A stretch of 39,824 bases of DNA from an uncultured Acidimicrobiales bacterium (GTDB lineage Bacteria > Actinomycetota > Acidimicrobiia > Acidimicrobiales > UBA10347), in assembly GCA_937991435.1 (NCBI GenBank), contig CALKPY010000005.1, positions 109,854-149,677 of the forward strand. The letters run 5' to 3'. How positions within the stretch are numbered: the first letter of the stretch is position 1; each line of letters begins with the position of its first letter. A program made the translations under genes and the position numbers. The notes under the pieces were generated by a model, which worked only from the letters and a program-made list of their open reading frames with translations, did not search any database and was not told the DNA's origin. Of the stretch, positions 3,261 to 20,700 are shown piece after piece.

Positions 3261-4306
3261 GCGGCACCGACACCACAATGATTTGCGCCAGCTGCAGCGA
3301 GTCGGTACCGACCAACACGTTTTGTGAAGCGTGCGGCGAGGCGGTCGATACCGGACCTGCCTCGACGGAAACTGAGCTCGCCGCACGTCGATGCAGCGCG
3401 TGCAGCGCTACGGAAGTCACCGCTGACGGTTGGTGCAGCCACTGCGGGCAAAAGCAACGGCCGCCACAAGACCATGTCCCACAAGACCATGTCCCTGAAG
3501 ACCATGTCCCTGAAGACCATGTCGTCGATGATCATGGGCACGTTGCGGTCGTTTCTGACCGCGGACAACGGCATCGTCGCAATGAAGACGCTGGCGCGGT
3601 CCGGCTCGGATCGCGCCGCGTCGTACTCGTCGTGTGCGATGGGGTGTCTTCCACTGATTCATCGCAGCGCGCTGCCCATATCGCCGCAAACACCGTCGCC
3701 GACATCATCATTCATTCCAACGAATCGGACTCGGTAGCGATCCAAACCGCAACGGCTGTCGCCCAACAGCGGGTGACCGAACTGCCAGCCATCGACGGCG
3801 GCGATCCGTCGTCTTGCACGCTCGTTGCAGCGATCGCGAGTATCGAGCCACAGGCACAAAAGGTCGTCCTGACGGTTGGGTGGTTGGGAGACAGCCGCGC
3901 CTACTGGCTCGACGAAGACCCCGCACAAGGTCTCGGCGTCACACAGCTGACGGTTGATCATTCGTGGGCAAACGAAGAACAGCTGCATAGCAGATTGTCT
4001 GCAGACGAGATCGCAGCAGATTCTCGGGCCCATTCGATCACTCAGTGGCTCGGTGCCGACGCCGGCTCTATCGAGCCAACAGTGATCAGCGTCACCGTTG
4101 CGCTGCCGGGCCGCCTGTTGTTGTGCAGTGATGGCTTGTGGAATTACGCCCCAACCGAGCGCTCGTTGGCCCAGATTATCTCAAGGCTGAACATGGCATT
4201 CGGTGCCAGCGCGGAGCTCGCTGAAGCCCTGGTCAGCCACGCCAATGCTGCAGGCGGGCACGACAACATCACGGTGGCTATAGCCGCCCTTTCACCACAG
4301 GAGTAG
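3257..4306 (+). CDS. PP2C-family serine/threonine phosphatase with N-terminal zinc ribbons
   Basis: A 349-residue protein starting at GTG 3257, whose GTGA overlaps the kinase stop; GTG 3254 is the alternative start. Two zinc ribbons come first (C10/C13/C23/C26 and C46/C49/C60/C63). A short tandem-repeat linker rich in Asp and His follows, then a complete PP2C catalytic domain: RRNED at 107-111, CDG at 127-129, the GDSRAYW segment, LCSDGLW and GGHDNIT near the end. These include the acidic residues that bind the two catalytic metal ions. The protein has no membrane segment, so it should act in the cytoplasm. The obvious role is to reverse phosphorylation by the kinase encoded just upstream. 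The shared zinc ribbons suggest that kinase and phosphatase dock to the same partner or to each other, which is inference. Confidence 0.93.
   Translation: MSGTDTTMICASCSESVPTNTFCEACGEAVDTGPASTETELAARRCSACSATEVTADGWCSHCGQKQRPPQDHVPQDHVPEDHVPEDHVVDDHGHVAVVSDRGQRHRRNEDAGAVRLGSRRVVLVVCDGVSSTDSSQRAAHIAANTVADIIIHSNESDSVAIQTATAVAQQRVTELPAIDGGDPSSCTLVAAIASIEPQAQKVVLTVGWLGDSRAYWLDEDPAQGLGVTQLTVDHSWANEEQLHSRLSADEIAADSRAHSITQWLGADAGSIEPTVISVTVALPGRLLLCSDGLWNYAPTERSLAQIISRLNMAFGASAELAEALVSHANAAGGHDNITVAIAALSPQE
3464..3538 (+). repeat. 15-bp tandem repeat in the phosphatase gene
   Basis: Four 15-bp units (3464-3523) followed by a degenerate fifth (3524-3538). They encode PQDHV, PQDHV, PEDHV, PEDHV and VDDHG in the linker between the zinc ribbons and the PP2C domain. 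The unit keeps the reading frame, so copy number could change without breaking the gene. Confidence 0.9.
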
Positions 4307-4308
4307 GC

Positions 4309-5601
4309 ATGGCCGATTTCAACGCAGACGTATTCCAGAACGAGTACCTGCCGAGCGGAACCGACGTGGTCGACGCCATCGTGACTGTGACTGCCGGCGC
4401 ATCGGTCACCGCGGCGTCTTCGCCCGGCCCCACCACAGACCACCTGGTCGAGGTCATCGTGATCGATACGTCAGGTTCCATGGACGAAGACCGCGGTGCG
4501 AAGATGCAAGCCGCAAAAGCAGCAACGATCGCGGCCGTCGAGGCCCTGGCAGACGGTGTCGAGTTCGCGATTATTGCCGGCACAGAGAAGGCGCGCCTGG
4601 CATATCCGCGAGCCGGGCTCACCACCGCCAACCGATCCACTCGGCGCGAAGCCAGTCAGGTCGTGTCGAAACTTCGAGCCGACGGTGGCACCGCGATCGA
4701 GACGTGGCTTCATATGGCGGCACAGCTGTTTCAACAACGACCGCACACGATTCGTCACTGTTTGCTGCTCACCGACGGCAAGAACCAACACGGCAACCCG
4801 CAGAACCTCGCACGAGTCATTTCGCAGTGCGACGGCCTGTTTCAGGCTGATTGCCGGGGGCTCGGCACCGATTGGGACGTCGATGAACTCCGTCAGATCA
4901 GCTCCGCTCTACTCGGCACGGTCGATATCATTCCGCGACCCGACGAAATGGTCGATGAGTTCAGACGAATCATCGCGTCGTCGATGACCAAACAGGTTGC
5001 AGACGTCGCATTGCGGCTTTGGAGCCCCAAGGGCGCTGAACTGCAATTCGTGAAACAGGTGTCTCCGAGCATCGAAGCACTTACGCACCGGGCCGTGGTC
5101 GTTGACGACCTCACGAGCGACTATCCGTTAGGCGCCTGGGCCCCAGGCGAAAGCCGCGATTATCACGTACGAGTCCGAGTACCGGTCGGCAGCCTGGGCG
5201 ATGAGCGCCTGGCCGCGAGGGTCATGCTCGCGGTCGACGGCCAAGCTGAGCCTGTGGCACTCATCCGCGCTGTCTGGACCGACGACTCGAACCTGTCAAC
5301 CCGAATCAATCGCGAAGTCGCCCACTACACCGGCCAACAAGAACTCGCCGAGGTAATCCATTCCGGCCTCGCTGCCCGCGCTGCTGGGGACTTTGACTCA
5401 GCAACCATCAAGCTCGGGCGGGCGGTGCAGCTCGCGCACGAAACCGGTAATGCCGATTCGGTTCGTCTTTTACAAAAAGTTGTCGACGTCGATGACCCCG
5501 CCACCGGAACGGTGCGGCTGAAGAGAGCTGTTGAAACCGCCGACGAGATGGCGCTCGATGTTCGCTCGACACGTACGGTTCGAGTCCGCAAGGAGTCCTG
5601 A
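4309..5601 (+). CDS. VWA-domain protein of the kinase/phosphatase operon
   Basis: A 430-residue cytoplasmic protein. A von Willebrand factor A domain spans about 45-215 with an intact metal-ion-dependent adhesion site: DTSGS at 53-57, Thr128 in GGTAI and Asp156 in LLLTDGK. A beta-rich region (about 220-330) follows, then a helical C-terminal tail (about 335-430). No zinc ribbon, signal peptide or membrane helix is visible. The ATG at 4309 is preceded by CAGGAG (4298-4303) overlapping the upstream stop. VWA proteins next to a kinase and a PP2C phosphatase are known from the TerY-P triad described in tellurite-resistance-type gene clusters. This protein is likely the metal-dependent scaffold of the module, but its ligand is unknown. 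Confidence 0.9.
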   Translation: MADFNADVFQNEYLPSGTDVVDAIVTVTAGASVTAASSPGPTTDHLVEVIVIDTSGSMDEDRGAKMQAAKAATIAAVEALADGVEFAIIAGTEKARLAYPRAGLTTANRSTRREASQVVSKLRADGGTAIETWLHMAAQLFQQRPHTIRHCLLLTDGKNQHGNPQNLARVISQCDGLFQADCRGLGTDWDVDELRQISSALLGTVDIIPRPDEMVDEFRRIIASSMTKQVADVALRLWSPKGAELQFVKQVSPSIEALTHRAVVVDDLTSDYPLGAWAPGESRDYHVRVRVPVGSLGDERLAARVMLAVDGQAEPVALIRAVWTDDSNLSTRINREVAHYTGQQELAEVIHSGLAARAAGDFDSATIKLGRAVQLAHETGNADSVRLLQKVVDVDDPATGTVRLKRAVETADEMALDVRSTRTVRVRKES

Positions 5602-6272
5602 TGGCCAGCTGTCGCAATGGGCATACGTCTGAATGGCCTGACTGGTGCTCGATTTGCGGTGAACGACTCACCTCGGCGAGTCCGGCTTCCGCCGATCCCC
5701 CAGCTGCAACAGGGGCCACTCAGCCCGCCAGCTTCGTGCCGTGTACTCATTGCAACGCACCACGCCACGTCGACGATGTGTTCTGCGAAAGCTGCGGTTT
5801 CGACTTTCTCACCGGCACCTTGCCAGGACCGCTCCCCCACGTGACGCCGTCATCTCCCGCACCATTTGTTGCGCCGCTCCTAACCGTCTCGATCGACCCC
5901 GATTACTTCAAGGCCTCGGTGGGCGATATCGAGTTGGAGCTACCAGTTCCTTTGCCAGCCGCGACCACGATTGATATCACTGGCGTGCGGATGTTGATTG
6001 GCCGACGAAGCGAAAGCCGAGGTATCTATCCAGACGTCGATATCGACGCTTCAACTGCCGATCCAGCTGTCTCGTCTCGCCACGCGCTTGTCGAGTTCCA
6101 TGCTGAATCAGGCCGATGGACGCTCACCGACCTCGGGTCGACCAACGGAACCGCGACAGATGCTTCTGGTGGTGACGTGTTGACCTCAGGGGATCCTCGC
6201 GACATCGACATTGCGGCAGGAGCATCGTTTTGGATTGGGGCCTGGACCCGCATCGATATCAAGGCCAATTGA
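5601..6272 (+). CDS. FHA-domain protein with N-terminal zinc ribbons
   Basis: A 223-residue protein. The first zinc site uses C4/H8/C16/C19, the second C48/C51/C62/C65. A Pro-rich linker leads to a C-terminal forkhead-associated domain (about 105-220) with the conserved phosphothreonine-binding residues: Gly134-Arg135, Ser159-Arg160-His161 and Ser180-Thr181-Asn182-Gly183. It should therefore bind a phosphothreonine peptide, probably on a protein of this operon such as the kinase. Unlike mycobacterial GarA it shows no ETT-type phosphorylation motif before the FHA domain, so it may read kinase output rather than be its metabolic effector. The ATG shares one base with the upstream TGA, and AAGGAG sits at 5590-5595. 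It is the last gene of the operon. Confidence 0.92.
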   Translation: MASCRNGHTSEWPDWCSICGERLTSASPASADPPAATGATQPASFVPCTHCNAPRHVDDVFCESCGFDFLTGTLPGPLPHVTPSSPAPFVAPLLTVSIDPDYFKASVGDIELELPVPLPAATTIDITGVRMLIGRRSESRGIYPDVDIDASTADPAVSSRHALVEFHAESGRWTLTDLGSTNGTATDASGGDVLTSGDPRDIDIAAGASFWIGAWTRIDIKAN

Positions 6273-6399
6273 GTACGTCACGCCGAGCGACCGGTCTTGC
6301 GTTCTCGAAGAATGCAGACGCCCCGACAGCCGTCACTAGGCTGACTTCCATGTTCATATTCGGCCACAAGGCAGCTCGATTCGGCATCAAGGACGAGCG

Positions 6400-6834
6400 A
6401 TGAGTCCTTCGCAGCAGGAGTTGAACGGACTTGAGCAGCTCAGGTTCGGATTCGAGCAGAAGCCAGCGGGCATCATCGCCCTCACTGGGATGATTGTCGA
6501 AGAGATGGAACACGGGTCGGTCCGATTTCGTATCGAGCCGAACGAAACGATGACCAATCCGCTGGGCACCGTCCACGGCGGTATAGCAGCGACGTTGCTC
6601 GACAGCGTCGCCAGCTGCGCAGTTCACTCGGCTCTACCCGCTGGTTCCACCTACGCCACCACACAGCTCAACGTTCATTTCACCCGAGCGATCCAACCCG
6701 ACGGAACACCGATCACTGGCGTCGGAACGGTTATTCACATGGGACGATCGACAGCGACCGCCACCGGCACGCTGACCGACCCTGAGGGGCGCATTGTCGC
6801 CCACGGCAGCGTCACCTGCGCAATTCGCAGCTGA
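6400..6834 (+). CDS. PaaI-like acyl-CoA thioesterase (hotdog fold)
   Basis: A 144-residue single hotdog-domain protein. The family signature is clear: Asn53 in NPLGTVHGG, the HGG turn at 59-61 and Asp68 in the following helix, then the strand-rich second half with HFTRAI and GRSTATATG. PaaI-type enzymes hydrolyse aromatic or medium-chain acyl-CoA thioesters; the substrate here cannot be deduced. The ATG at 6400 follows AAGGA at about 6388. It lies 127 bp after the signalling operon on the same strand and converges on pcrA with an 18-bp gap. I see no regulatory element or RNA in the 6273-6399 gap. Confidence 0.85.
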   Translation: MSPSQQELNGLEQLRFGFEQKPAGIIALTGMIVEEMEHGSVRFRIEPNETMTNPLGTVHGGIAATLLDSVASCAVHSALPAGSTYATTQLNVHFTRAIQPDGTPITGVGTVIHMGRSTATATGTLTDPEGRIVAHGSVTCAIRS

Positions 6835-6852
6835 CAGAGAAGCGACGATCGG

Positions 6853-9102
6853 TCAGCCGCCGACCTTTTCAAGCGGGGCCCAAGACAGCAGAACGCGCTT
6901 CTCGCCAACGGTCGGAAAGTTAACGACGGCCTCGGCCTTTTCACCTTCGCCCTCGATCATCAGCACGACACCTTCGCCCCAAGTCGAATGACGAACATCG
7001 TCGCCTACCCGTATTCCCTTCTCATGGGCACCGCTGCGGGTGCGGGCTGGTGCCGTGGGATTCGCGATGCCCGTGCCCAGCGATGGGCCTGCGTTACTAC
7101 TTGCCGAGCGCATCGCTCGTTCGACTCGCGCTTCGCGTTGTTCGGCCCAGCGGTTGCTTCCGGTAGATCGGCTGCTGCGGCGGCGAGACGCTGTGCCTTC
7201 GACTTCTTTAACGAGCACAGCCGGTATCTCGTCAAGGAACCGGCTCGGCGGGTTGTATTGAGTTGCGCCAAACAGTGTGCGACTTGCGGCGTGCGTCAAG
7301 TACAGCCGCTGTTCAGCGCGAGTGATTCCAACGTACGCAAGGCGACGTTCTTCTTCGAGTTCTTCGGGGTCGCCGATGCTGCGCATATGGGGAAACACGC
7401 CGTCTTCCATACCCAAGATGAAGACCGTCGGATACTCAAGCCCTTTGGCCGAGTGCATGGTCATCAGCACCACCGAAGACCCCTCGTCGTCGAGCGCGTC
7501 GGTGTCGCTGACCAAGGCGATTTGTTCGAGGAACTCAGCAACATCGCCAAAGTCCGAAGCCGCACCGATCAATTCACCCAGATTCTCAAGCCGACCATCA
7601 GCTTCGACGCTGCGGTCAGCTTCGAGCGCCCCCCGGTAGCCAGAAACGTCAAGCAGATGGTCGAGCACGACCGCCGGCCCTTCGTCGAGCATGAGTTCGG
7701 CGGAGATCAAAAGATCGAGGAACTTGTTGATGCCAGCTACGGCCTTGCCCGAAACTCCCGCCTCGGGTGCCACTTTGAGCGCCTCGATAAACGGAAGCCC
7801 ATGCGCTGCCGCCCACACATCGAGGCGAGCAATCGAACTGTCACCGACGCCGCGGCGCGGCGTGTTCAGCACCCGCTTGACGCTCACTTCGTCGACCGGA
7901 TTCACGACCGCTTTGAGATAGGCCATGGCATCTTTGATCTCGCGCCGGTCATAGAACCGGGTGCCGCCCAAGACCTTGTAAGGGATCCCGACCCGCATCA
8001 TGTATTCCTCGAGCACCCGGCTCTGAGCGTTGGTGCGGTAGAACACCGCCATCTCGCCCCAGCGGTAGTGCTCAGACTCGTTCAGTCGCGACAGCTCATG
8101 GGCGACCCATCGAGCCTCGTCGCCTTCGTCTTCGGCGTGATAACGAATGATTGGTTCGCCGGGACCCTGCTCAGTCCACAGCGTCTTTGGTTTGCGGCCA
8201 GGGTTGTGGTCGATGACCGCATTGGCGGCATCGAGAATCGTCTGCGATGACCGGTAGTTCTGTTCAAGTACGACGGTGGTTGCATCGGGAAACGCATTTT
8301 CGAACTCGAGAATGTTGCGGATATCTGCTTTGCGGAACCGGTAGATCGACTGGTCTGCGTCGCCGACCACGCACACGTTGCGGTGCTGGGCGCCGAGTTG
8401 CAGAACGAGTTCGTTCTGCACCGGGTTGGTGTCTTGGTACTCATCGACCAGTACATGCTCAAATCGGCGCTGCCACGTTTCGAGAACAGCGGGGTTCGAG
8501 CGAAACAAGCGCACCGTCACCGACAGCAGGTCGTCGAAGTCCATTGCTCCGGCGCCCTTGATTCGGCGTTGGTATTCCGCGAATACCTCGGCGATACGGC
8601 GCTCGTGAGACTGCTCTGCCCGCTCAAGGAATTGCTCAGGGTCATAGCCCTCGTTCTTGGCAGCGCTTATTGCGGAGTGCACCGAACGCGGGGGGAAGCG
8701 CTTTGAATCAACATTGAGATCTCGCAGCACGTAGCCGGTCAGGCGTACAGCATCGGCGTGGTCATAGATGGTGAACGAACTCGGATAGCCGGCAACCGCA
8801 GCCTCTCGACGCAGAATCCGCACACAGGCGGAGTGAAAGGTCGACACCCACATCTTCTGGGCGACCGGACCCACGAGTGCCTCGACGCGATGTTTCATCT
8901 CGTTCGCGGCCTTGTTGGTAAAGGTGATCGCCAGAATCGAAAATGGCGAAACACCGTTTTCTTGAATCAGTCGACCAATGCGATGGGTGAGCACCCGGGT
9001 CTTACCGCTACCAGCACCCGCAATAACCAGCAGTGGCCCGACGTCGTGCAGTACGGCTTCTTCCTGGTCGGGGTTGAGGCCATCGAGCATTTCCAGCGTC
9101 AC
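6853..9102 (-). CDS. pcrA: ATP-dependent DNA helicase PcrA/UvrD (superfamily 1)
   Basis: A 749-residue 3'-5' DNA helicase for nucleotide excision and mismatch repair and for removing RecA from DNA. Walker A lies at 28-35 (AGAGSGKT), the Walker B region reads VDEYQDTNP, and the motif III-VI segments DADQSIYRF, EQNYRSS, MTMHSAKGLEYP and YVGITRA are all present. The C-terminal 50 residues form the RNA-polymerase-interacting Tudor-like domain usual in PcrA (DDVRHSTWGEGVV). I place the start at GTG 9102 because a TAGGGT hexamer ends 6 nt before it; ATG at 9090 is the alternative. Length is normal for the family. It is transcribed divergently from the oxidoreductase gene at 9209. Confidence 0.95.
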   Translation of the reverse strand: MTLEMLDGLNPDQEEAVLHDVGPLLVIAGAGSGKTRVLTHRIGRLIQENGVSPFSILAITFTNKAANEMKHRVEALVGPVAQKMWVSTFHSACVRILRREAAVAGYPSSFTIYDHADAVRLTGYVLRDLNVDSKRFPPRSVHSAISAAKNEGYDPEQFLERAEQSHERRIAEVFAEYQRRIKGAGAMDFDDLLSVTVRLFRSNPAVLETWQRRFEHVLVDEYQDTNPVQNELVLQLGAQHRNVCVVGDADQSIYRFRKADIRNILEFENAFPDATTVVLEQNYRSSQTILDAANAVIDHNPGRKPKTLWTEQGPGEPIIRYHAEDEGDEARWVAHELSRLNESEHYRWGEMAVFYRTNAQSRVLEEYMMRVGIPYKVLGGTRFYDRREIKDAMAYLKAVVNPVDEVSVKRVLNTPRRGVGDSSIARLDVWAAAHGLPFIEALKVAPEAGVSGKAVAGINKFLDLLISAELMLDEGPAVVLDHLLDVSGYRGALEADRSVEADGRLENLGELIGAASDFGDVAEFLEQIALVSDTDALDDEGSSVVLMTMHSAKGLEYPTVFILGMEDGVFPHMRSIGDPEELEEERRLAYVGITRAEQRLYLTHAASRTLFGATQYNPPSRFLDEIPAVLVKEVEGTASRRRSSRSTGSNRWAEQREARVERAMRSASSNAGPSLGTGIANPTAPARTRSGAHEKGIRVGDDVRHSTWGEGVVLMIEGEGEKAEAVVNFPTVGEKRVLLSWAPLEKVGG

Positions 9103-9108
9103 ATTTGC

Positions 9109-9114
9109 ACCCTA
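9109..9114 (-). promoter_or_regulatory. Putative -10 box of pcrA (leaderless)
   Basis: TAGGGT on the minus strand, followed by six bases and then the GTG start. This TANNNT-N6 spacing places the expected transcription start on the start codon. The identical hexamer and spacing occur before the gene at 30615. Confidence 0.55.
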
Positions 9115-9197
9115 TGCGTTGAGTCGGCGCGCGAAGTGTTCCCGCACGAGCTTCCACTCGTCGTTCGTTGGGCGAGGTTGTCGCGATGTCGAGAACG

Positions 9198-9203
9198 TAG
9201 TCT
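9198..9203 (+). promoter_or_regulatory. Putative -10 box of the LLM oxidoreductase gene (leaderless)
   Basis: TAGTCT lies five bases before the ATG at 9209, and no Shine-Dalgarno sequence is visible. A leaderless transcript is likely. It supports this ATG over upstream in-frame starts, which would overlap the divergent pcrA. Confidence 0.5.
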
Positions 9204-9208
9204 GCGGT

Positions 9209-10138
9209 ATGGCTCACCCCTTCAGGTTCAGTGCTTCCCTCGGTTCCCTCGACGCCGCTGATTTGGTCGCGAACGCGCAATTAGCTGAAGAACTCGGCTA
9301 TTCCGCTGTCACATTGCCAGACCATTTCGACAACCAGCCCGCTCCCCTTGTTGGACTCACCGCTGCAGCGATGGCGACCACCACGCTTCGAGTTCTGCCG
9401 CTCGTGCTCGCCAACGACTATCGACAACCGCTCGTGCTCGCCAAAGAAATCGCGAGCCTCGACGCCCTCACGGGTGGCCGTGTCGACTTCGGTCTCGGCG
9501 CAGGTTGGATGCGCGCTGACTACGAGCAAGCGGGCATCCCCTACGACACACCGGGAACCCGCATCGCTCGTCTCGCCGAATCTGTCGACATCATCACCGC
9601 GTTGCTCGACGGAGAAAAGATCGACCATAAGGGCACCCATTACACAATCACCGGCCAGCTGGCACCGCCTCTTCCAGTTCAGGCAGGTGGGATCCCGCTG
9701 ATGCTCGCGGGCGGCAAACAAAAAATGCTGACCCTTGCAGGATCCAAGGCAGACATCGTCGGAATCAACCCTGGGTTGACGGCTGGAGTTATCGATGAGA
9801 GGGCCGGCCGCGACAGCACACAAGCCCAGACAGACCGCAAGTTGCAATGGGTACGAGATGGTGCTGGCGACCGGTTCGACTCAATCGAACTCCAAACGAG
9901 AATTCACGTTGCGATGATTACCGACGACCGCGATTCCGTAGCTGCTGACCTTGCACCGGTACTTGGTATCTCTGCCGAAGAGGCCCTTGCATCACCGCAC
10001 GCGCTCGTCGGCACCGTCGGGCAATGCATCGACGAGATGCGCCGCTGGCGCGATCGTTGGGGAATCAGCTTTGTGTCGATAAACGGCGAGAACATGCGCG
10101 AGTTTGCGCCAGTTGTCGAAGCTCTCGCCGGGGCCTGA
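9209..10138 (+). CDS. Luciferase-like (LLM class) F420-dependent oxidoreductase
   Basis: A 309-residue TIM-barrel protein of the bacterial luciferase/F420 superfamily. Characteristic segments are the N-terminal HPFRFSASLGS, LAEELGYSAVTLPDHF, the LVLAKEIASLDALTGGRVDFGLGAG stretch in short form, GIPLMLAGG and the C-terminal VGTVGQCIDEMRRW. It most resembles the actinobacterial subfamily TIGR03621, for which reduced coenzyme F420 is the presumed cofactor; the substrate is unknown. An open frame runs further upstream, but ATG 9209 gives the usual family N-terminus and has a -10-like box at the right distance. It is a single-gene unit upstream of the S1-protein leader. Confidence 0.85.
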   Translation: MAHPFRFSASLGSLDAADLVANAQLAEELGYSAVTLPDHFDNQPAPLVGLTAAAMATTTLRVLPLVLANDYRQPLVLAKEIASLDALTGGRVDFGLGAGWMRADYEQAGIPYDTPGTRIARLAESVDIITALLDGEKIDHKGTHYTITGQLAPPLPVQAGGIPLMLAGGKQKMLTLAGSKADIVGINPGLTAGVIDERAGRDSTQAQTDRKLQWVRDGAGDRFDSIELQTRIHVAMITDDRDSVAADLAPVLGISAEEALASPHALVGTVGQCIDEMRRWRDRWGISFVSINGENMREFAPVVEALAGA

Positions 10139-10290
10139 GTTCCACAGCAACTCTCGACAATGCCGCAACGCCCGGAAGTCCGCGCTGGCTACACGGCGCG
10201 AGTCGCCCGTTCCGGTGGCAACATAGAACTTCTTGACGGTTGTGACGTCGTTCGCGGCATCTCAACCAACCGAACCAACCATTCATGACC

Positions 10291-10306
10291 GAGACCCTTA
10301 GGTCTC
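10291..10306 (+). promoter_or_regulatory. Leader hairpin 1 upstream of the S1-domain gene
   Basis: A perfect 6-bp inverted repeat, GAGACC-CTTA-GGTCTC, with a 4-nt loop. It ends 37 nt before the ATG at 10344 and should fold in the mRNA. It is followed directly by AAGGAG, a Shine-Dalgarno-like sequence with no start codon at usable distance. No poly-U follows, so it is not a typical terminator. The rest of the 205-bp gap (10139-10290) shows nothing recognisable. Confidence 0.6.
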
Positions 10307-10310
10307 AAGG

Positions 10311-10326
10311 AGCGGCAGCCGCCGCT
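10311..10326 (+). promoter_or_regulatory. Leader hairpin 2 upstream of the S1-domain gene
   Basis: A second perfect inverted repeat, AGCGGC-AGCC-GCCGCT, again with a 6-bp stem and 4-nt loop, four bases after the first hairpin. It lies just before the true ribosome site (AGGA, 10334-10337). Its 5' arm includes the last two bases of the AAGGAG element, so folding could hide that site. Confidence 0.6.
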
Positions 10327-10343
10327 ACAGAACAGGAAACGCC

Positions 10344-12185
10344 ATGCCTATTGAAGACACACCGCCAATTGAAGACACACCGCTTACCGAAGAAGCACCG
10401 CCTACCGAAGAAGCACCTAACGGTGCAAGCACGCCTACCGGTGACTCCATAACCAACGAAGAACTATCGATTGAAATCCCCGTTGTCGACGATGTTGTTC
10501 CCGCCGCTACCGGTGTCACCACCGACGCGATCGTGACCGAATCAACCGACTCGCCGACCGAATCAGCGGTGGTCGATGTGGCCGCGGCCGAATCAACCCC
10601 GCAGCCGGCACCAGCCGCTTCGACTTCAGAAGCGCCTGAGCCTGCTGCAGCGCCAGAAGCCGCAACGGCGCCTTCCTCTGAGCCAGCGGCTGTCACCGAC
10701 TCGGCAGCATCACCAGAACCAGAACCCCCGGTTGCTTCGGCAGAACCCGCAGCATCACCAGAAGCCGCGCCATCACCAGAACCTGCGGCTGCGCCGGCAG
10801 TCGAGGCAGCGTCGAGCGCACCAGCTGAGCAGACAGCGCCTATGTCGCCCGCACCCGGTGCGCACCCCACGATCGGCGACACAGCAATGCCAGGCGCCAT
10901 CCCACCTACCCCGGCGGGTCCGCCTGCAGACCTCACAGATGGCTTGGGTCTTCCCGACGACGGCGTAATCCTTGGTCCACCGAATCTTGGCGGCTTCGAG
11001 AGCGGCGAAATCATCACCGGAACCGTGCTTACGGTTACCAGCCGCGAAGCCGAGATCGACCTCGGCGACGGCAAGATCGGCGTCGTTGGCGAACGACACT
11101 GGAGCTCAGGCGATCAGACCGATATGACCACAGTGGTCAAGACCGGCGACACGGTTGAAGCCGCAGTTCTCGCGCGCGCTGATGTCAAAAAGCGCATCAC
11201 GTTGAGCCGCATCTGGGCGCAGCAGAAACGAGGCTGGGAGACCGCCGAGGCCGCCGCAAAAGACAAGACCGATCTAAGCGCTACCGTCGTCGAGACGGTC
11301 AAGGGCGGCATATCGCTTGACGTCAACGGGGTGCGAGCATTCATGCCAGCATCACTTGTGGATCTCAACACGGTCACCGACCTCAAGTCATTCATCGGCC
11401 AGACGTTCGACGTTCGGGTAATCGAAGCTGACCGAAACAAGGCTCGTCTGATCGTGAGCCGAAAGGCCGCTCTGCGCGCTACGCAGCGACACGAAGCTCG
11501 TACCGCAATGGCCAAGTTCGAAGTGGGCCAGGAGATCACCGGCAAGGTCGCCCAGATCACCGACTTCGGGGCCTTCGTCGACGTAGACGGTGTTCGGGGT
11601 CTCGTACACAAGAGCGAAATCGGTTGGAGCCGAGCACGTGACCCGCAGCGTGACCTTCAAGTCGGCCAGCAGGTCACGGTTCGGGTTCTCAAGGTCCAAC
11701 CCTCGAAGAACCGTCTCGGCCTGTCGATGCGGGCCGGAGCCGACCCGATCAAGGCAATCGCTAAGGGCGACCGTTTCGAGGGCACCGTGACCCGCCTCGT
11801 CGACTTCGGAGCTTTTGTTGAGCTTCCTGATGGCGGAGAAGGCCTGGTGCACGTGTCTGAGATGGCCGAATATCGGGTGTTTGCCCCAGAAGAGGTCGTG
11901 ATGCCTGGCGAGAAGGTCGCCGTCAAGGTGATCAAGGTCGACCGCAAGCGTCGTACGATCGACCTCTCAATTGCTCAAGCGGTTGTCCCTGACTCCCCCG
12001 CGGAGATTGCCGCCCGCGAAGCCGCCAAAGAGCGAGCGGCTGCCGAAGCTGAAAAGCAGGCGGCTGCCAAGTCAGAAACCGCGGCGCCCTCAACGGCCGC
12101 CGAAGCGGGTGACGACGAACATGCCGAAGACGCCGCGGGTTCGACTCCAGCAAGCCCCGAGGCGTCGTCTTCAGAAGACGAGTAG
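10344..12185 (+). CDS. S1 RNA-binding domain protein, ribosomal protein S1-like
   Basis: A 613-residue protein. Residues 1-215 are a disordered Pro/Ala/Glu-rich extension that opens with four hexapeptide repeats. Four S1 (OB-fold) domains follow at about 221-290, 308-375, 394-463 and 475-545. The last two are the most canonical (GKVAQITDFGAFVDVDG, GTVTRLVDFGAFVELPDG). The tail (546-613) is Ala/Glu-rich and ends in an acidic patch. Four S1 domains is the count of actinobacterial ribosomal protein S1, which binds mRNA on the 30S subunit, but the long acidic N-terminal extension is not part of classical S1. It could be this organism's RpsA or a paralogue. AGGA lies 6 nt before the ATG. Its stop directly abuts the stop of the convergent gene. 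Confidence 0.88.
   Translation: MPIEDTPPIEDTPLTEEAPPTEEAPNGASTPTGDSITNEELSIEIPVVDDVVPAATGVTTDAIVTESTDSPTESAVVDVAAAESTPQPAPAASTSEAPEPAAAPEAATAPSSEPAAVTDSAASPEPEPPVASAEPAASPEAAPSPEPAAAPAVEAASSAPAEQTAPMSPAPGAHPTIGDTAMPGAIPPTPAGPPADLTDGLGLPDDGVILGPPNLGGFESGEIITGTVLTVTSREAEIDLGDGKIGVVGERHWSSGDQTDMTTVVKTGDTVEAAVLARADVKKRITLSRIWAQQKRGWETAEAAAKDKTDLSATVVETVKGGISLDVNGVRAFMPASLVDLNTVTDLKSFIGQTFDVRVIEADRNKARLIVSRKAALRATQRHEARTAMAKFEVGQEITGKVAQITDFGAFVDVDGVRGLVHKSEIGWSRARDPQRDLQVGQQVTVRVLKVQPSKNRLGLSMRAGADPIKAIAKGDRFEGTVTRLVDFGAFVELPDGGEGLVHVSEMAEYRVFAPEEVVMPGEKVAVKVIKVDRKRRTIDLSIAQAVVPDSPAEIAAREAAKERAAAEAEKQAAAKSETAAPSTAAEAGDDEHAEDAAGSTPASPEASSSEDE
10347..10418 (+). repeat. 18-bp tandem repeat at the 5' end of the S1-domain gene
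   Basis: Four imperfect 18-bp units begin right after the ATG and encode PIEDTP, PIEDTP, LTEEAP and PTEEAP. Units 1 and 2 are almost identical in DNA, as are units 3 and 4, which suggests recent duplication in an unstructured tail. Confidence 0.85.
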
Positions 12186-12776
12186 TTAGTGGTCGGAAAC
12201 AGTCCGACCAAGCAACGCGAGAAGCCGTGTCGAAGCCGTCGCCTCTGGCGGCGGCTCGACGGGCGGACCATACGAGTCGGTCGTACCGAGCTTTGGTGCG
12301 ACCGACTGCCAGAAATCAAGCAACCACTCGGCGTTGTTGTCGCTGATCGGTTCAGGTCGACCCAGAGCGACTCCGAGATCCCATGTGTGCACTACGTTGT
12401 CGGTGATCCGGTTGCCGAGCAGTTGCTTCCCAGACACGAGTCCAACATCAATGGCGTAGTCGGCCTCGGCGACTCCGGGTGCCCGCACCGTTTCGATCGC
12501 AAGTAACGCAGTACCGCGCCAGGTCGTCATTGGCGTCAGGCCCAATAGGTCGCTTCCGAAGTCGGTTTGGGCCGAGGTCGACTCGCCCTTCAACACGCTC
12601 GTGAAGTGAGCCTCGCCCAGCACAACATGGGCAACGAGGTCGCGTACTGTCCAGTCACCGCATGGAGTTGAACGATCCCATTCGTGGTCGGCAATTCCCT
12701 GCACGCCTTCGCCGAAACCGGCGACTGCGCCGATATAGCGCTTTATGAGTTGGTCTGAATCGAACTCATCGGTCAC
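12186..12776 (-). CDS. DinB/mycothiol-dependent maleylpyruvate isomerase-fold protein (TIGR03086 type)
   Basis: A 196-residue helical-bundle protein of the actinobacterial TIGR03086 group. The N-terminal segment with CGDWTVRDLVAHV supplies His50, and NRITDNVVHTWDLGVALG supplies Asp126 and His130. These match the three-residue metal site (His, ExxxH) of mycothiol-dependent maleylpyruvate isomerase, with Asp replacing Glu. Members are thought to be metal-dependent enzymes that use mycothiol, but the reaction is unknown here. It lies 7 bp after guaA on the same strand, so it is probably co-transcribed. Its TAA stop abuts the stop of the S1 gene with no base between. Confidence 0.8.
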   Translation of the reverse strand: MTDEFDSDQLIKRYIGAVAGFGEGVQGIADHEWDRSTPCGDWTVRDLVAHVVLGEAHFTSVLKGESTSAQTDFGSDLLGLTPMTTWRGTALLAIETVRAPGVAEADYAIDVGLVSGKQLLGNRITDNVVHTWDLGVALGRPEPISDNNAEWLLDFWQSVAPKLGTTDSYGPPVEPPPEATASTRLLALLGRTVSDH

Positions 12777-12783
12777 CCGGCGG

Positions 12784-14316
12784 TCACTCCCACTCGATCG
12801 TGCCTGGCGGCTTCGACGTAATGTCGTAGGCCACGCGGTTGACTCCGTCGACCTCGTTGATCACGCGGCTTGAGATCGTTTCGAGCACGTCGTAGGGAAT
12901 GCGCGCCCAGTCTGCAGTCATGACATCTTCACTCGTCACGGCCCGCACGATGATTGGATAGCCGTAGGTGCGCTCATCGCCCATTACGCCGACGCTTCGA
13001 ATGTCAGGAAGCACAGCAAACGACTGAAATATTTCGCGCTCGAGTCCAGCGTCTCGCAGCACTTCGCGCACGATGAAGTCGGCGCGCTGTAGAACATCGA
13101 CTTTGTCTGGGGTGACCTCGCCGATGATTCGCACGCCCAGCCCTGGGCCGGGGAATGGCTGACGCCAGACAATCTCGTCGGGCAGGCCGAGTTCAGTGCC
13201 AAGTTTGCGGACCTCGTCTTTGAACAGGGTTCGCAGCGGCTCGACAAGCTCGAACTGCATGTCGTCGGGTAGACCACCCACGTTGTGGTGGCTCTTGATG
13301 GTCGACGCGTGCTTCGATCCAGATTCGATCACATCGGGGTAGAGCGTGCCCTGTACGAGGAAGTTGGCGTCTTCGATGCCGCCACTTGCCCGCTCAAAGA
13401 CTCGAATAAAGGTCTCGCCGATTGCCTTTCGCTTTGCCTCGGGTTCAGTGAGCCCAACAAGCTTCGCAAAGAAGTCGTCAGCCGCGTGCACATGAATCAG
13501 TTCGATTCCCTGCGTTTTCTGGAAAGTCTCGACTACCTGATCGCTCTCATGAAGGCGCATGAGCCCGGTGTCGACATAGACACAGGTCAACTGAGCCCCA
13601 ATGGCACGGTGCACGATGGCTGCGGCGACAGCGGAATCAACGCCGCCCGACAGGCCACAGATGGCACGCCCGGCGCCAACCTGTTGCCGAATGGCCTCGA
13701 CCTGTTCGTCGATGATGTTCGCCATAGTCCATTCGCGTGCGATCCCGGAACGATCGAGCCAGTTCTCGATCAGCTCTTGTCCGTGTGGCGTATGCGAAAC
13801 CTCGGGGTGATACTGCACGCCACAGATCAGTTCGCTTTCAAACGCTGCCACCGGTGCGTTAGCGGTCGAGGCGGTGACCACAAAGTTGTCAGGAAGCTCG
13901 CTGATGCAGTCGAAGTGACTCATCCAGACCGATTGGTTGATCGGTTGCCCAGCCAGCAAGCCCTGAGTCGCGCTGAGAGTCAAGTCTGTTCGGCCGTACT
14001 CACCAGCTTCGAATCGGCTTACGACGCCACCGAGCTGGCTGGCAATCAGTTGCGCGCCATAGCAGATGCCCAGGATCGGCACGCCAAGGTCGTACACGCC
14101 CGGATCGATTGCCGGAGCGTCGTCGACGTTGACCGATGCGGGGCCGCCACTGAAGATGATTCCCGCGGGGTTAAGGGCTGCAAACTCTGCCGCGGTCAGG
14201 TCGTGAGCGACGATTTCGCTATACGCATTGGCTTCGCGGACTCGGCGTGCGATCAGTTGCGCGTATTGCGCACCGAAGTCAACGACCAGAACGGCCCCGT
14301 CTTGCAGATCGGTCAA
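12784..14316 (-). CDS. guaA: GMP synthase (glutamine-hydrolysing)
   Basis: A 510-residue enzyme converting XMP, glutamine and ATP to GMP, the last step of guanine nucleotide synthesis. The N-terminal class I glutamine amidotransferase has Cys85 in GICYGAQ and His170/Glu172 in QYHPEV. The ATP-pyrophosphatase domain has its P-loop SGGVDS at 223-228, and the C-terminal dimerisation domain ends with the family signature KPPGTIEWE. The start is TTG at 14316. No ATG or GTG precedes the conserved [12 protein letters not shown] strand in frame, and the TTGA overlaps the guaB3 stop, indicating translational coupling. Length is typical. Confidence 0.96.
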
Positions 14317-17287: not shown

Positions 17288-18088
17288 ATGACCACATCGC
17301 CTGCCGAACAATTGCTGAGGTCTCAAGCGCAGTTCGGTGCTAACGCAGCAAAGTATGCCGCTTCGACCGTGCACGCCAAGGGCGCCAGTCTGAGTCGAAT
17401 CGTCGAACTCGTGATCGACAATGTGGCGCCGCAAGCGTCATGGCGCGGCCTCGATATCGCGAGCGCCGCCGGGCACACGGCCTTCGCGTTCGCTCCGCAC
17501 GTCGGTTCAATGGTGTCAAGCGACGCCACCCCCGAGATGCTGGCGGTTGCCAAAGCAACCGCCACTGATCGAGGCATTAGCAACATCGAGTTCGAACTCG
17601 CCGACGCCCATGCGCTGCCCTTCGCCGACGCCAGCTTCGATCTGGTGACGTGTCGGATCGCTCCTCATCATTTCTCGGACCCCGCACTGTTCGTGACCGA
17701 GGCTGCTCGGGTATTGAGCCCCCAGGGCGTGTTCGCGCTCGTTGACAACGTTGCCCCGGCTGACCCCGCTGCGGCGAAATGGTGCGACGACTTCGAACGT
17801 CGCCGCGACCTGAGTCACCTTCGATGTCTACCGGTGAGCGAATGGGTCGATCTGATCGAGAATGCCGGTCTGACCGTGTTGGTGTGCGAGACCATGGGCA
17901 AGAGGATGATGTTTGAGCCGTGGGCCGACAACATGTCGGTCGACGAGCAAACACGAAATGAGCTGGTCGCAAACCTCGCTGCTGCACCAGAAGGTGCAGC
18001 ACAATGGCTGCGACCACACGTACCCGCCAAGCGCTCCGAGGCATCGTTCGTGCTGACTGAGGGCCTCTTCGTGGCCCAAGTGCCGTGA
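17288..18088 (+). CDS. Class I SAM-dependent methyltransferase (UbiE-like)
   Basis: A 266-residue soluble protein with a Rossmann-type methyltransferase domain at about 45-165. Motif I reads GLDIASAAGHTA (54-65), so a Gly usual in this motif is replaced by Ala. The acidic residue after strand 2 is in SSDATPEMLAVA, and the LPFADASFDLVTCRIAPHHF segment is characteristic of UbiE/Methyltransf_11 proteins. The substrate is unknown. The stop overlaps the start of the next gene (TGATG), so the binding-protein-like product downstream is probably made with it. It is divergent from kynA. Confidence 0.85.
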   Translation: MTTSPAEQLLRSQAQFGANAAKYAASTVHAKGASLSRIVELVIDNVAPQASWRGLDIASAAGHTAFAFAPHVGSMVSSDATPEMLAVAKATATDRGISNIEFELADAHALPFADASFDLVTCRIAPHHFSDPALFVTEAARVLSPQGVFALVDNVAPADPAAAKWCDDFERRRDLSHLRCLPVSEWVDLIENAGLTVLVCETMGKRMMFEPWADNMSVDEQTRNELVANLAAAPEGAAQWLRPHVPAKRSEASFVLTEGLFVAQVP

Positions 18089-18879
18089 TGCGGCTGCGCT
18101 CCTACATGGCACCTGGCTTCCCCAAGGAGCTCTTTCTGCAGGTCGGCAAGCTCATTGGCGCCGACGTTGAATTCGATGAGCTTCGGTCTGGACCTGAGTT
18201 TGGTGATGATCCGTTCGCACGTGGCGAGATCGATCTGGGTTGGATCTGCTCCACGTCATTCGCCGCTCTTGCGCTGTCCAGCGAACAACCGTCGGTGCAA
18301 CTCGTTGGTGTCGCCTGGGTTCCCACCGACCCCGGTTCGGCGTCTGCTCCGCGCTATTTCGGTGACGTGGTCGTGCGCTCCGGACTGCAGACCACAGACG
18401 GAAGCCCAGTCACCGAGCTGCACCAGCTCGGCGGTCTGTCGATCGCGTGCAACGATCCAATCAGCTTGAGCGGTTACTACTCGTGGCGCGTCGCCGTGTC
18501 TGACTCAGGACACGACCCTGACACGTTCGCTGAAATCCGGTTCACGGGCGGCCACGAACAATCGCTCGAAGCCATCGTTGCCGGCGACGTCGACGCTGCA
18601 GTCATCGACTCGGTGGTTCGATTCTCGCGTGGGCGTTCTGATCCGGCGATCGCATCGTTGTCGGTCATTGATCGACTCGGCCCTTGGCCCGTGCAACCAT
18701 TGGTGGCTCGAGGGTCGATGCCTGCTGAGCAGGTCGCCGAGATTCGGCATTCAATTCTCAGGGCCGACACTTCTTCTGGGTCCGAGCTCGGCGAACAGTT
18801 GAACCGTGCCGGGCTTGATCGATTTGTCGAGGTCTCGCCCGATCACTATGCGCCCGTTGTCCGGGCGCTTGCGGTCTAG
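18088..18879 (+). CDS. PhnD/SsuA-type substrate-binding domain protein without signal peptide
   Basis: About 263 residues with the two-lobe layout of type 2 periplasmic-binding proteins: an early RSYMAPGFPKELF strand, DLGWICSTSFAAL, the GLSIACNDPISLSGYYSW hinge-strand region, GGHEQSLEAIVAGDVDAAVID and a C-terminal helical lobe. It most resembles phosphonate/phosphate (PhnD-like) binding proteins. The N-terminus has no hydrophobic stretch and no lipobox cysteine, so the protein should stay in the cytoplasm. No ABC permease or ATPase lies nearby. ATG 18088 shares a base with the upstream stop; GTG 18085 is the alternative. It may be a ligand sensor or an enzyme built on this fold rather than a transporter part. 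Confidence 0.75.
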   Translation: MRLRSYMAPGFPKELFLQVGKLIGADVEFDELRSGPEFGDDPFARGEIDLGWICSTSFAALALSSEQPSVQLVGVAWVPTDPGSASAPRYFGDVVVRSGLQTTDGSPVTELHQLGGLSIACNDPISLSGYYSWRVAVSDSGHDPDTFAEIRFTGGHEQSLEAIVAGDVDAAVIDSVVRFSRGRSDPAIASLSVIDRLGPWPVQPLVARGSMPAEQVAEIRHSILRADTSSGSELGEQLNRAGLDRFVEVSPDHYAPVVRALAV

Positions 18880-18886
18880 CAATACG

Positions 18887-20185
18887 TCAACGGGTCAGGT
18901 CCAGCGAAAAGTTCGACAGCAACTCGGGCCCCGCGTCGGTCACGAGATATTGGTCTTCGAGTTTGATGCCCTCGCCCCCCGAGCGCGGGCCGATGTAGCT
19001 CTCGACGGTGAAACACATGCCTGCTTCGACGACGCCGTCGTACCCCGAGGTTTCCCACGCTGCAGGGAAGTAGATGTTCGGATACTCATCGCATTGGCCG
19101 ACGCCGTGGAACAAACAGGAATAGTGGCGGAAATCATCGGGCGAGGGGAACCACGCCTGATGAGCGAGCTCGCGAAAGGTGCGCCCCACGGTCAACAACT
19201 CGGCATTGCGTGTCAGCTGTTCGACAGCCATATCGAGCAACTGGGCCTGGTGTTTGGTGGGTGCGACATCACCAACGACCCAGCTTCGACTGATGTCGGT
19301 CATCATTCCGTAGGGCCCCACAAGGTCGGTGTCATAGGCCAGCATTTCGCCGGCCCCAATTTTGCGCGAGCTTGCTTCCTGCATCCACGGGTTGGTGCGA
19401 GGACCCGAAGCAAGGATCTGGGTCTCGATCCACTCGCCGCCACGTCGAATGTTCCCGGCGTGCAACAGGGCCCAAACATCGCGCTCGGTCATACCCGGCT
19501 CCAACGCGTTGAGCATCTCCGCCATCGTTGCCTCGCACGAGTGGACCGAACATCGCATCGCTCGAATTTCGTCGGGTCCTTTGATGCGTCGGGCCAACTC
19601 CAGAACCCGCTGACCGTCGCCGACGGTAAACCCGGCGGACTCAAGGTTTCGGTAACACTCGTATGGAGCTGCGTCGATGGCAACCTTCGCTCCTGGGCCG
19701 TGACGCTCCACTATTAGCGATGACAGTTCGTCGGCCCATCGTTGAGCTGCGTCGAAGCGCCGGTCGCCTGCCGAAAAATAGTTCAACCCAATCGCGGGCC
19801 GAACCTCAGCGATCACGTCACTGTGACCCGACAGAAATTCGCAACCGACATAGTCCCAGACCACGATGTGTCCATCGGTTCCGATCCAGGCGTATCGGGT
19901 CGCATTGTGCATAACCCACAGCTGCATATTGGTGGTGTCGGTTACATACCGAATGTTCATTGGGTCCAGCAGGATTGCCCCGTCGTACCCGCCCGACTGC
20001 AACTGTTCAATCGTGCGAGCCACTCGATACTCGCGCATCGACGCAACGTCGGGCAGCTCGAGTCCTGCCGTTGTCCAGGCTGCGACCTGTTCGTCACCGG
20101 GACCAAGCGTGAGATGATGTCCATCGGTTGCGGCCAGCACATTTTCACGTGAGCGGTCACGCAGCGATTTGACGACGCGATTCAT
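18887..20185 (-). CDS. dddP: DddP-like dimethylsulfoniopropionate (DMSP) lyase, M24 peptidase family
   Basis: A 432-residue protein of the M24 (creatinase/Xaa-Pro peptidase) fold that matches DddP far better than true peptidases. DddP cleaves DMSP to dimethyl sulfide and acrylate. Visible DddP-like segments are MNIRYVTDTTNMQLW, RIKGPDEIRAMRC, GGEWIETQILASGPRTNPW and HGVGQCDEYP. The metal-binding set appears complete: Asp285, Asp287 (the DTD that departs from the peptidase pattern), Asp297, His360, Glu395 and Glu410. The proposed catalytic Asp366 lies six residues after His360. From memory these correspond to D295/D297/D307/H371/E406/E421 and D377 of the Ruegeria enzyme, offset by a constant 10-11. 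No signal peptide, so cytoplasmic. A GGGGGTG ribosome site precedes the ATG. An M24 peptidase of unknown substrate remains possible. Confidence 0.8.
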   Translation of the reverse strand: MNRVVKSLRDRSRENVLAATDGHHLTLGPGDEQVAAWTTAGLELPDVASMREYRVARTIEQLQSGGYDGAILLDPMNIRYVTDTTNMQLWVMHNATRYAWIGTDGHIVVWDYVGCEFLSGHSDVIAEVRPAIGLNYFSAGDRRFDAAQRWADELSSLIVERHGPGAKVAIDAAPYECYRNLESAGFTVGDGQRVLELARRIKGPDEIRAMRCSVHSCEATMAEMLNALEPGMTERDVWALLHAGNIRRGGEWIETQILASGPRTNPWMQEASSRKIGAGEMLAYDTDLVGPYGMMTDISRSWVVGDVAPTKHQAQLLDMAVEQLTRNAELLTVGRTFRELAHQAWFPSPDDFRHYSCLFHGVGQCDEYPNIYFPAAWETSGYDGVVEAGMCFTVESYIGPRSGGEGIKLEDQYLVTDAGPELLSNFSLDLTR

Positions 20186-20295
20186 GGCACCCCCAGACGG
20201 TTCATGTCAGACTCCCAGATCGCGAACGTAGACGAACAGCAAGCATCGCGCCGGTGTAGCGGCGCTGTCCGAGATATGTGCGCCGACGGCTTCGC

Positions 20296-20301
20296 TATGG
20301 T
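20296..20301 (+). promoter_or_regulatory. Putative -10 box of the Nudix remnant (leaderless)
   Basis: TATGGT followed by six bases and the ATG at 20308, the same geometry as at intact genes. The promoter of the damaged gene therefore looks preserved. Confidence 0.45.
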
Positions 20302-20307
20302 GCGCTG

Positions 20308-20700
20308 ATGAGCGGATCCGAACTTGGCCGGTGGATCGAACACAGCCACAAGGTGATCTATGAGAGCTCCTGGGTGAGCCTGGAAACTGTCGATATCGAG
20401 ACGCCTTCGGGCCAACGCTTCGATCATCATGTGGTGCGATGCCCCCGGTGGACACCAGAAGCATTGCGCCTTGGCGTTCATTGGCATCCGAGCAACGGCT
20501 TGATCGATCAGACTTTTCACGTGGCCTGGACAGACCATGCGGTCAATACAGGACCGCCAACCGATATCGATGAGGCGACCGAAATTTCATTTCACCCTGT
20601 GGCATCCATCGGCGCAATGATCACCTCAGGTGAAATCACCGACGGACTCAGTCTGACCTCATTGTGCTGGTGGCTTTCGTGCGGACCTGATCGGCACTGA
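20308..20700 (+). pseudogene. Nudix hydrolase gene with the Nudix box deleted
   Basis: A 130-residue open frame. The first 43 residues match the N-terminus of actinobacterial ADP-ribose pyrophosphatase-like Nudix proteins (WVSLETVDIETPSGQRFDHH, then VVRCPR). The rest matches the part that normally follows the Nudix helix (WTPEALRLGVHWHPSNGLID, then QTFHVAW). The roughly 45-60 residues expected between PR and WTP are missing, and with them the entire catalytic GX5EX7REUXEEXGU box. The frame is kept across the junction, so a protein could still be made, but it cannot be a Nudix hydrolase. It is either a recent in-frame deletion, a non-catalytic protein, or an assembly error. Confidence 0.75.

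Follow-up and report, generated by a model that had tools for sequence, protein, structure and literature searches.

An M24-family gene of an uncultured Acidimicrobiales bacterium, located within the 39,824-nucleotide stretch of DNA analysed here (the window), encodes a protein that is probably (at a probability of roughly 0.6) a DddP-fold binuclear-metal lyase belonging to a dispersed onium-osmolyte (DMSP or betaine) catabolic gene set of this actinobacterium. DddP converts the osmolyte DMSP into dimethyl sulfide (DMS) and acrylate. The lyase reading rests on homology, fold, active-site residues, phylogenetic position, gene content and ortholog synteny, from which we infer the reaction, the substrate and the joint action of the gene set. 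By analogy with DddP, cleavage of DMSP by the query is plausible, with a quaternary-ammonium analogue as a serious competitor for the role of substrate; the figure above applies to the general lyase statement, and the DMSP and betaine readings divide the possibilities both inside and beyond that statement.

Gene and host

The open reading frame, whose limits and M24 family were given exactly in an earlier note made from the DNA letters, starts with ATG and encodes a protein carrying the Pfam domains Peptidase_M24 and Creatinase_N, the best solved relatives of which are RlDddP and RdDddP. Its features, with residue equivalences in RlDddP numbering, are as follows.

18887..20185, minus strand: DddP-like M24B metalloprotein, 432 aa
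19916..19918, minus strand: W90 in the NMQLW motif, equivalent to RlDddP W95 (alignment)
19325..19333, minus strand: D285-T-D287, predicted metal ligands equivalent to RlDddP D295 and D297 (alignment; PMC4108388)
19295..19297, minus strand: D297, predicted metal ligand equivalent to RlDddP D307 (alignment)
19121..19123, minus strand: Y355, equivalent to RlDddP Y366 (alignment; PDB 4s00 is the Y366A mutant)
19088..19108, minus strand: H360-GVGQC-D366 (alignment; PMC4108388)
19001..19003, minus strand: E395, predicted metal ligand equivalent to RlDddP E406 (alignment)
18956..18958, minus strand: E410, predicted metal ligand equivalent to RlDddP E421 (alignment)

The gene is single-copy in a genome of 3.7 Mb in 164 contigs. 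Orthologs at 54-77% identity occur in Acidimicrobiales genomes, the closest sequence being a 77% ortholog in a different genome of the same genus (G005), and the window encodes a GuaB3-family protein that scores above its cut-off. GuaB3-family proteins are of a type typical of actinobacteria. Both observations support the actinobacterial host that had been proposed as probable. A contaminant or recently acquired foreign gene was considered and is countered by the codon GC3 of the M24 gene (0.69, similar to that of neighbouring genes) and by orthologs throughout the order.

Similarity to DddP in sequence, fold and active site

A phmmer search of the PDB returned DddP structures as its top four matches, namely 4b28 (RdDddP from R. 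denitrificans, E=2.5e-106), 4rzy (RlDddP from R. lacuscaerulensis, E=3e-104), both matched over query residues 20-429, and 4s00 and 4s01 (E ~1e-104); the next family was the prolidases at E=1e-9. Identity of the query to RdDddP and RlDddP is ~42%. The AF2 structure prediction, made for the monomer of what in DddP is a homodimer enclosing the active-site tunnel, has a pLDDT of 91.9 and superposes on 4rzy with a TM of 0.89 and an rmsd of 1.9, N-terminal domain included, compared with a TM of ~0.65 against prolidases. DddP is thus the best match by sequence, profile and predicted fold alike.

In the alignment the query keeps six out of six DddP metal ligands (D285, D287, D297, H360, E395 and E410) as well as the substrate and catalytic set W95/Y366/D377, present as W90, Y355 and D366. 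H360 corresponds to the metal-ligand H371 of RlDddP and D366 to D377, the proposed catalytic base, of which 4s01 is the D377N mutant. Six metal ligands have likewise been reported for RdDddP, and the equivalents of Y366 and D377 were both discussed as catalytic (PMC4108388); according to a review, one Trp and one Tyr bind the sulfur of DMSP, and the alpha proton is taken by an Asp (PMC5395565), and W95 would be the sulfur-binding Trp of that review. The DTD motif, the HGVGxCD arrangement and both Glu ligands, on which the earlier note had relied, are all present, and to these are added the conserved Y355 and W90, which it did not mention. Its statement that the spacing is that of DddP holds for the His-to-Glu distances (35 and 50, identical to RlDddP) and is right to within a single residue for D295-H371, where the query has 75 and RlDddP 76.

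Three paralog subfamilies from sister genomes (same genus or order) were compared with the query. W95 is replaced by Y, Y366 by N and D377 by N in the first (L008-L010); W95 is replaced by F and D377 by G in the second (L012, L014, L135); and the NMQLW motif is gone from the third (L011, L015, L017). Since each misses parts of it, the full residue set of the query is not a default of the fold. L008, L009 and L010 keep the metal ligands around an altered active site and may represent a DddP-like metalloenzyme of a different active site.

Phylogenetic position

A maximum-likelihood tree of 81 proteins was anchored on RdDddP and RlDddP, placement being tested against these two structurally verified sequences; fungal DddPs and the O. 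doudoroffii DddP1 and DddP2 are not among the sequences sampled, and the several M24 copies of Oceanimonas-group genomes, none of which could be equated with DddP2, were not taken as verified anchors. Three clades form one group (support 99/96), outside which the long-diverged paralogs fall. Clade A (100/100) holds RdDddP, RlDddP, Oceanimonas, Pseudomonas and others, clade B (97/93) Mesorhizobium, Roseibium and Kiloniella, and clade C (99/94) some gammaproteobacteria, Denitromonas, Chloroflexi and a 27-row actinobacterial subclade. The query belongs to this subclade (99/94), hence outside the clade of the crystallised DddPs. Against the NCBIfam equivalog model for DddP, NF043017 (cut-off 600 bits), it scores 437 bits; clade A members reach 602-627 bits, with Oceanimonas, Oceanisphaera and Pseudomonas relatives passing, and the other clade B and C members scored reach 445-510 bits. 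On position and score together, the query is DddP-like and not a curated DddP equivalog. The phylogeny, which the earlier note had proposed as a check and which it allowed to count against its reading, therefore places the protein outside the clade with the two structurally verified DddPs; this is not decisive against activity, because a Fusarium DddP only 32% identical to RdDddP was reported as functional (PMC4108388).

A short paralog clade outside A+B+C (L220) has the corresponding residues at 265, 341 and 392. The active DddP of HWgs001 was published with residues D263, H339 and E390, and also E385 (PMC10989825); the first three match the L220 spacing and E385 does not. HWgs001 might belong to this clade, in which case DMSP lyase activity would occur on either side of the query in the tree, although the placement is weak because of the misfit of E385.

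Genomic context

The window neighbours (tryptophan dioxygenase, a methyltransferase, a PF12974 protein, a GGDEF-EAL protein, Lhr helicase, GMP synthase, GuaB3 and GatB) indicate no pathway; no DMSP gene adjoins the M24 gene, and MTTB and DMGDH are absent around it. The convergent genes at 17288-18879 (plus strand) encode a SAM methyltransferase and, overlapping its end, a PF12974 (phosphonate-binding-like) solute-binding protein, and a functional link to them was rejected, as no homologs were found in the other fetched loci. Clade-B M24 loci carry another, different PF12974 protein (L071:9252-10079). A 140-aa ORF at 20278-20700 (plus strand), in which the ends of a Nudix hydrolase were recognised by eye without the central Nudix box, has no Pfam match and may represent a Nudix protein that has decayed or is without catalytic function.

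A recurrent arrangement among the Acidimicrobiia orthologs has a gene of the MTTB family and one for an FAD-GcvT fusion preceding the M24 gene, all co-directional and separated by short gaps, and such MTTB-DMGDH-M24 tandems span Acidimicrobiia, Roseibium, Mesorhizobium and gammaproteobacteria. No in-frame stop, which would be a sign of pyrrolysine, interrupts the MTTB genes, and their best PDB matches include the solved glycine betaine methyltransferase; the FAD protein of the operons has dimethylglycine dehydrogenase as its nearest match (E=5e-170). MtgB-type enzymes demethylate glycine betaine in marine bacteria (PMC12478193). OpuAC, ProV-like and permease genes are close by in several ortholog loci. 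An MTTB or DMGDH gene lies within 6.5 kb of the M24 gene in 15/29 actinobacterial, 23/25 clade-B and 2/19 clade-A loci, the clade-B loci not being independent because they are mostly from Mesorhizobium; the difference between the actinobacterial subclade and clade A has a Fisher p of 0.003, uncorrected for phylogeny. Clade-B clusters also encode a betaine-homocysteine methyltransferase above cut-off (573/338). Betaine-type genes are further found beside a Pseudomonas shirazensis clade-A protein above the DddP cut-off, which adjoins ProVWX and a GbcA-like gene, and beside plasmid-borne distant M24 paralogs, which adjoin BCCT, Rieske, sarcosine oxidase and glycine betaine ABC genes.

The 77% ortholog in the sister species (G005) lies two genes downstream of a DmdA-family gene, whose product has DmdA 3tfh as its best PDB match (E=1e-80 vs 1e-34 for the next) and is 65% identical to the DmdA-like protein of the query's own genome, both keeping the SGWSKQGG motif. 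At this locus (L149:3571-7601) the DmdA-like and M24 genes flank an AAA_33 + Bac_luciferase (kinase/luciferase-like) fusion on the same strand. Mandelate racemase/enolase-superfamily genes occur near DddP-family genes of clades A and C (L053:2689-3915, L098:9359-10588, L143:7353-8456).

The earlier suggestion that the enzyme may work alone holds for the locus only: elsewhere the genome encodes AcuI, a DmdA-like protein and ABC importers of the betaine type (ProVWX/OpuAC loci). On another contig of this genome, C11, an MTTB gene (63% to the operon type), a DMGDH gene (58%) and the DmdA-like gene stand in tandem. This contig (L222) carries, close together at 2033-12944, three different DMGDH-like FAD-GcvT fusions, one MTTB and one DmdA-like gene, in what is by its gene content a putative concentrated methylated-amine/onium demethylation island. 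Against the DmdA equivalog model NF009133 (cut-off 410 bits) the DmdA-like protein scores 344 bits, and the best protein across the 8 genomes searched 404. AcuI (acrylyl-CoA reductase) is encoded ~100 kb from the window on the same contig (G000:C5:28959-29921; equivalog model NF051456, 454.7 bits vs a cut-off of 440). Across the order (59 genomes, many of them incomplete MAGs), AcuI exceeds the cut-off in 5/7 carriers of a clade-C M24 gene vs 10/52 others (Fisher p=0.009, uncorrected for phylogeny), and in 4/5 vs 7/49 (p=0.005) once relatives from the same genus are excluded. This enrichment fits an acrylate-forming reaction; AcuI also has roles beyond DMSP use. Of the three OpuAC proteins that the genome encodes, one belongs to a ProVWX cluster together with an M19 protein, an aldehyde dehydrogenase and an Ldh_2 protein, which shares 64% identity with the Ldh_2 encoded close to the M24 gene of G005. 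No BCCT transporter was found in the genome.

Proposed function and alternative explanations

Most simply, the protein would catalyse a beta-elimination of the DddP type on an onium compound that bears a carboxylate. If the mechanism follows that of DddP, this carboxylate would be bound by the metal pair, the onium head group would be held by W90 and Y355, and abstraction of the alpha proton by D366 would lead to beta-elimination; DMSP as the substrate would yield DMS and acrylate. Import may proceed through OpuA-type ABC systems, acrylate may be activated to acryloyl-CoA and then reduced by AcuI, and the DmdA-like enzyme and the MtgB-like/DMGDH pair may act alongside as demethylases of DMSP or betaines. 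The residues, the AcuI link and the DmdA-like neighbour are compatible with DMSP, the MTTB-DMGDH synteny with a trimethylammonium analogue. Because importers can be common to DMSP and betaines, a shared osmolyte island explains both signals. Against the lyase reading stand the lack of an adjacent DMSP gene, the score of 437 vs 600 bits, the position outside clade A, DmdA-like proteins at 344-404 vs 410 bits and a genome with no BCCT.

A dedicated DMSP lyase, acting physiologically on DMSP and as a side activity on DMSOP just as Roseobacter DddP does, falls somewhat short of even odds. It is favoured by the identity of the known active-site residues, by the presence of AcuI and its enrichment among carriers, by the DmdA-like gene near the closest ortholog, by functional DddPs at 32% identity to RdDddP (PMC4108388) and by surveys in which Acidimicrobiia MAGs already appear as carriers of dddP (PMC7494906, PMC13280387), whereas the score under the equivalog cut-off, the betaine-operon synteny of the sister clade and the setting of the clade B members of soil rhizobia, with MTTB, DMGDH and an above-cut-off betaine-homocysteine methyltransferase, argue against it. 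What the earlier note called a DddP-type DMSP lyase is upheld as regards membership of the DddP superfamily, the fold and the complete set of catalytic residues; DMSP lyase function is not established, because of the sub-cut-off score, the position outside clade A and the preferential link of orthologs to glycine-betaine-type demethylation genes.

Alternatively, the M24 proteins of clades B and C may use a trimethylammonium betaine (e.g. beta-alanine betaine) or another betaine-breakdown intermediate, with DMSP cleavage incidental or absent, a possibility to be taken seriously even if it is rather less than probable. The short-gap tandems in Acidimicrobiia, Roseibium, Mesorhizobium and gammaproteobacteria, the matches of their MTTB to the solved glycine betaine methyltransferase and of their FAD protein to dimethylglycine dehydrogenase, the nearby glycine-betaine ABC transporter genes and the divergent plasmid M24 paralogs in betaine loci all point this way. 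However, DMSP lyases have this same active site, the gene in the window lies outside such an operon, we know of no step in glycine betaine breakdown that requires an M24 enzyme, and co-location may merely mark an osmolyte island, transporters being common to DMSP and betaines. It seems unlikely that clades B and C form a separate family cleaving a trimethylammonium betaine (e.g. to trimethylamine and an unsaturated acid) in MtgB-DMGDH operons, of which marine DddP would be the sulfonium-specialised offshoot. That the query is an ordinary M24B Xaa-Pro peptidase or dipeptidase merely resembling DddP, as the M24 fold and the 'Xaa-Pro peptidase' annotation of several relatives might suggest, is very improbable given the DddP-specific residues kept (the D297 ligand, W, Y and D), the matches to DddP vs prolidases (E=1e-104 vs 1e-9; TM 0.89 vs ~0.65) and the inactivity of RlDddP on Val-Pro (PMC5395565).

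Implications

The presence of dddP homologs in Acidimicrobiia is not new, since they were reported in MAGs of this class in 2020 and 2026 (PMC7494906, PMC13280387). In the literature searched, neither a description of the sister clade and its MtgB- and DMGDH-containing operon nor biochemistry on any actinobacterial member was found. Several cultured actinobacteria release DMS from DMSP without a known ddd gene (PMC6309047), and, if the clade cleaves DMSP, the DddP-fold lyase proposed here would be a candidate enzyme for an actinobacterial lineage. Metagenome surveys count the Acidimicrobiia dddP homologs as DMSP lyases; if the clade acts on betaines, surveys with loose cut-offs would overcount dddP, and the family would offer a lead on the origin of DddP.

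Comparison with known systems

With DddP (RlDddP 4rzy, RdDddP 4b28; NF043017) the query shares the M24B fold, the six metal ligands, W95/Y366/D377 and a full-length alignment over residues 20-429, whereas it is ~42% identical, scores 437 bits against the 600-bit cut-off, forms part of a separate sister clade and has relatives with a gene neighbourhood unlike that of DddP. Prolidase/Xaa-Pro dipeptidase, the ectoine hydrolase DoeA and creatinase have the pita-bread fold in common with the query but reach only a TM of ~0.6-0.7 at 15-21% identity, and the sequence match of the closest prolidase is far weaker (E ~1e-9). The actinobacterial DddP-like paralogs (L008-L010; L011/L015/L017; L012/L014) possess the M24B fold and the metal ligands, yet, unlike the query, they are without the DddP N-terminal stretch and have lost W, Y and D in varying combinations. 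Clade B (Mesorhizobium, Roseibium and Kiloniella, with MTTB-DMGDH and often Bmt clusters) has the same residue set as the query and, as in many actinobacterial orthologs, MTTB and DMGDH upstream; it differs in being a separate clade (97/93) at ~45-54% identity, and the window copy stands outside such an operon.
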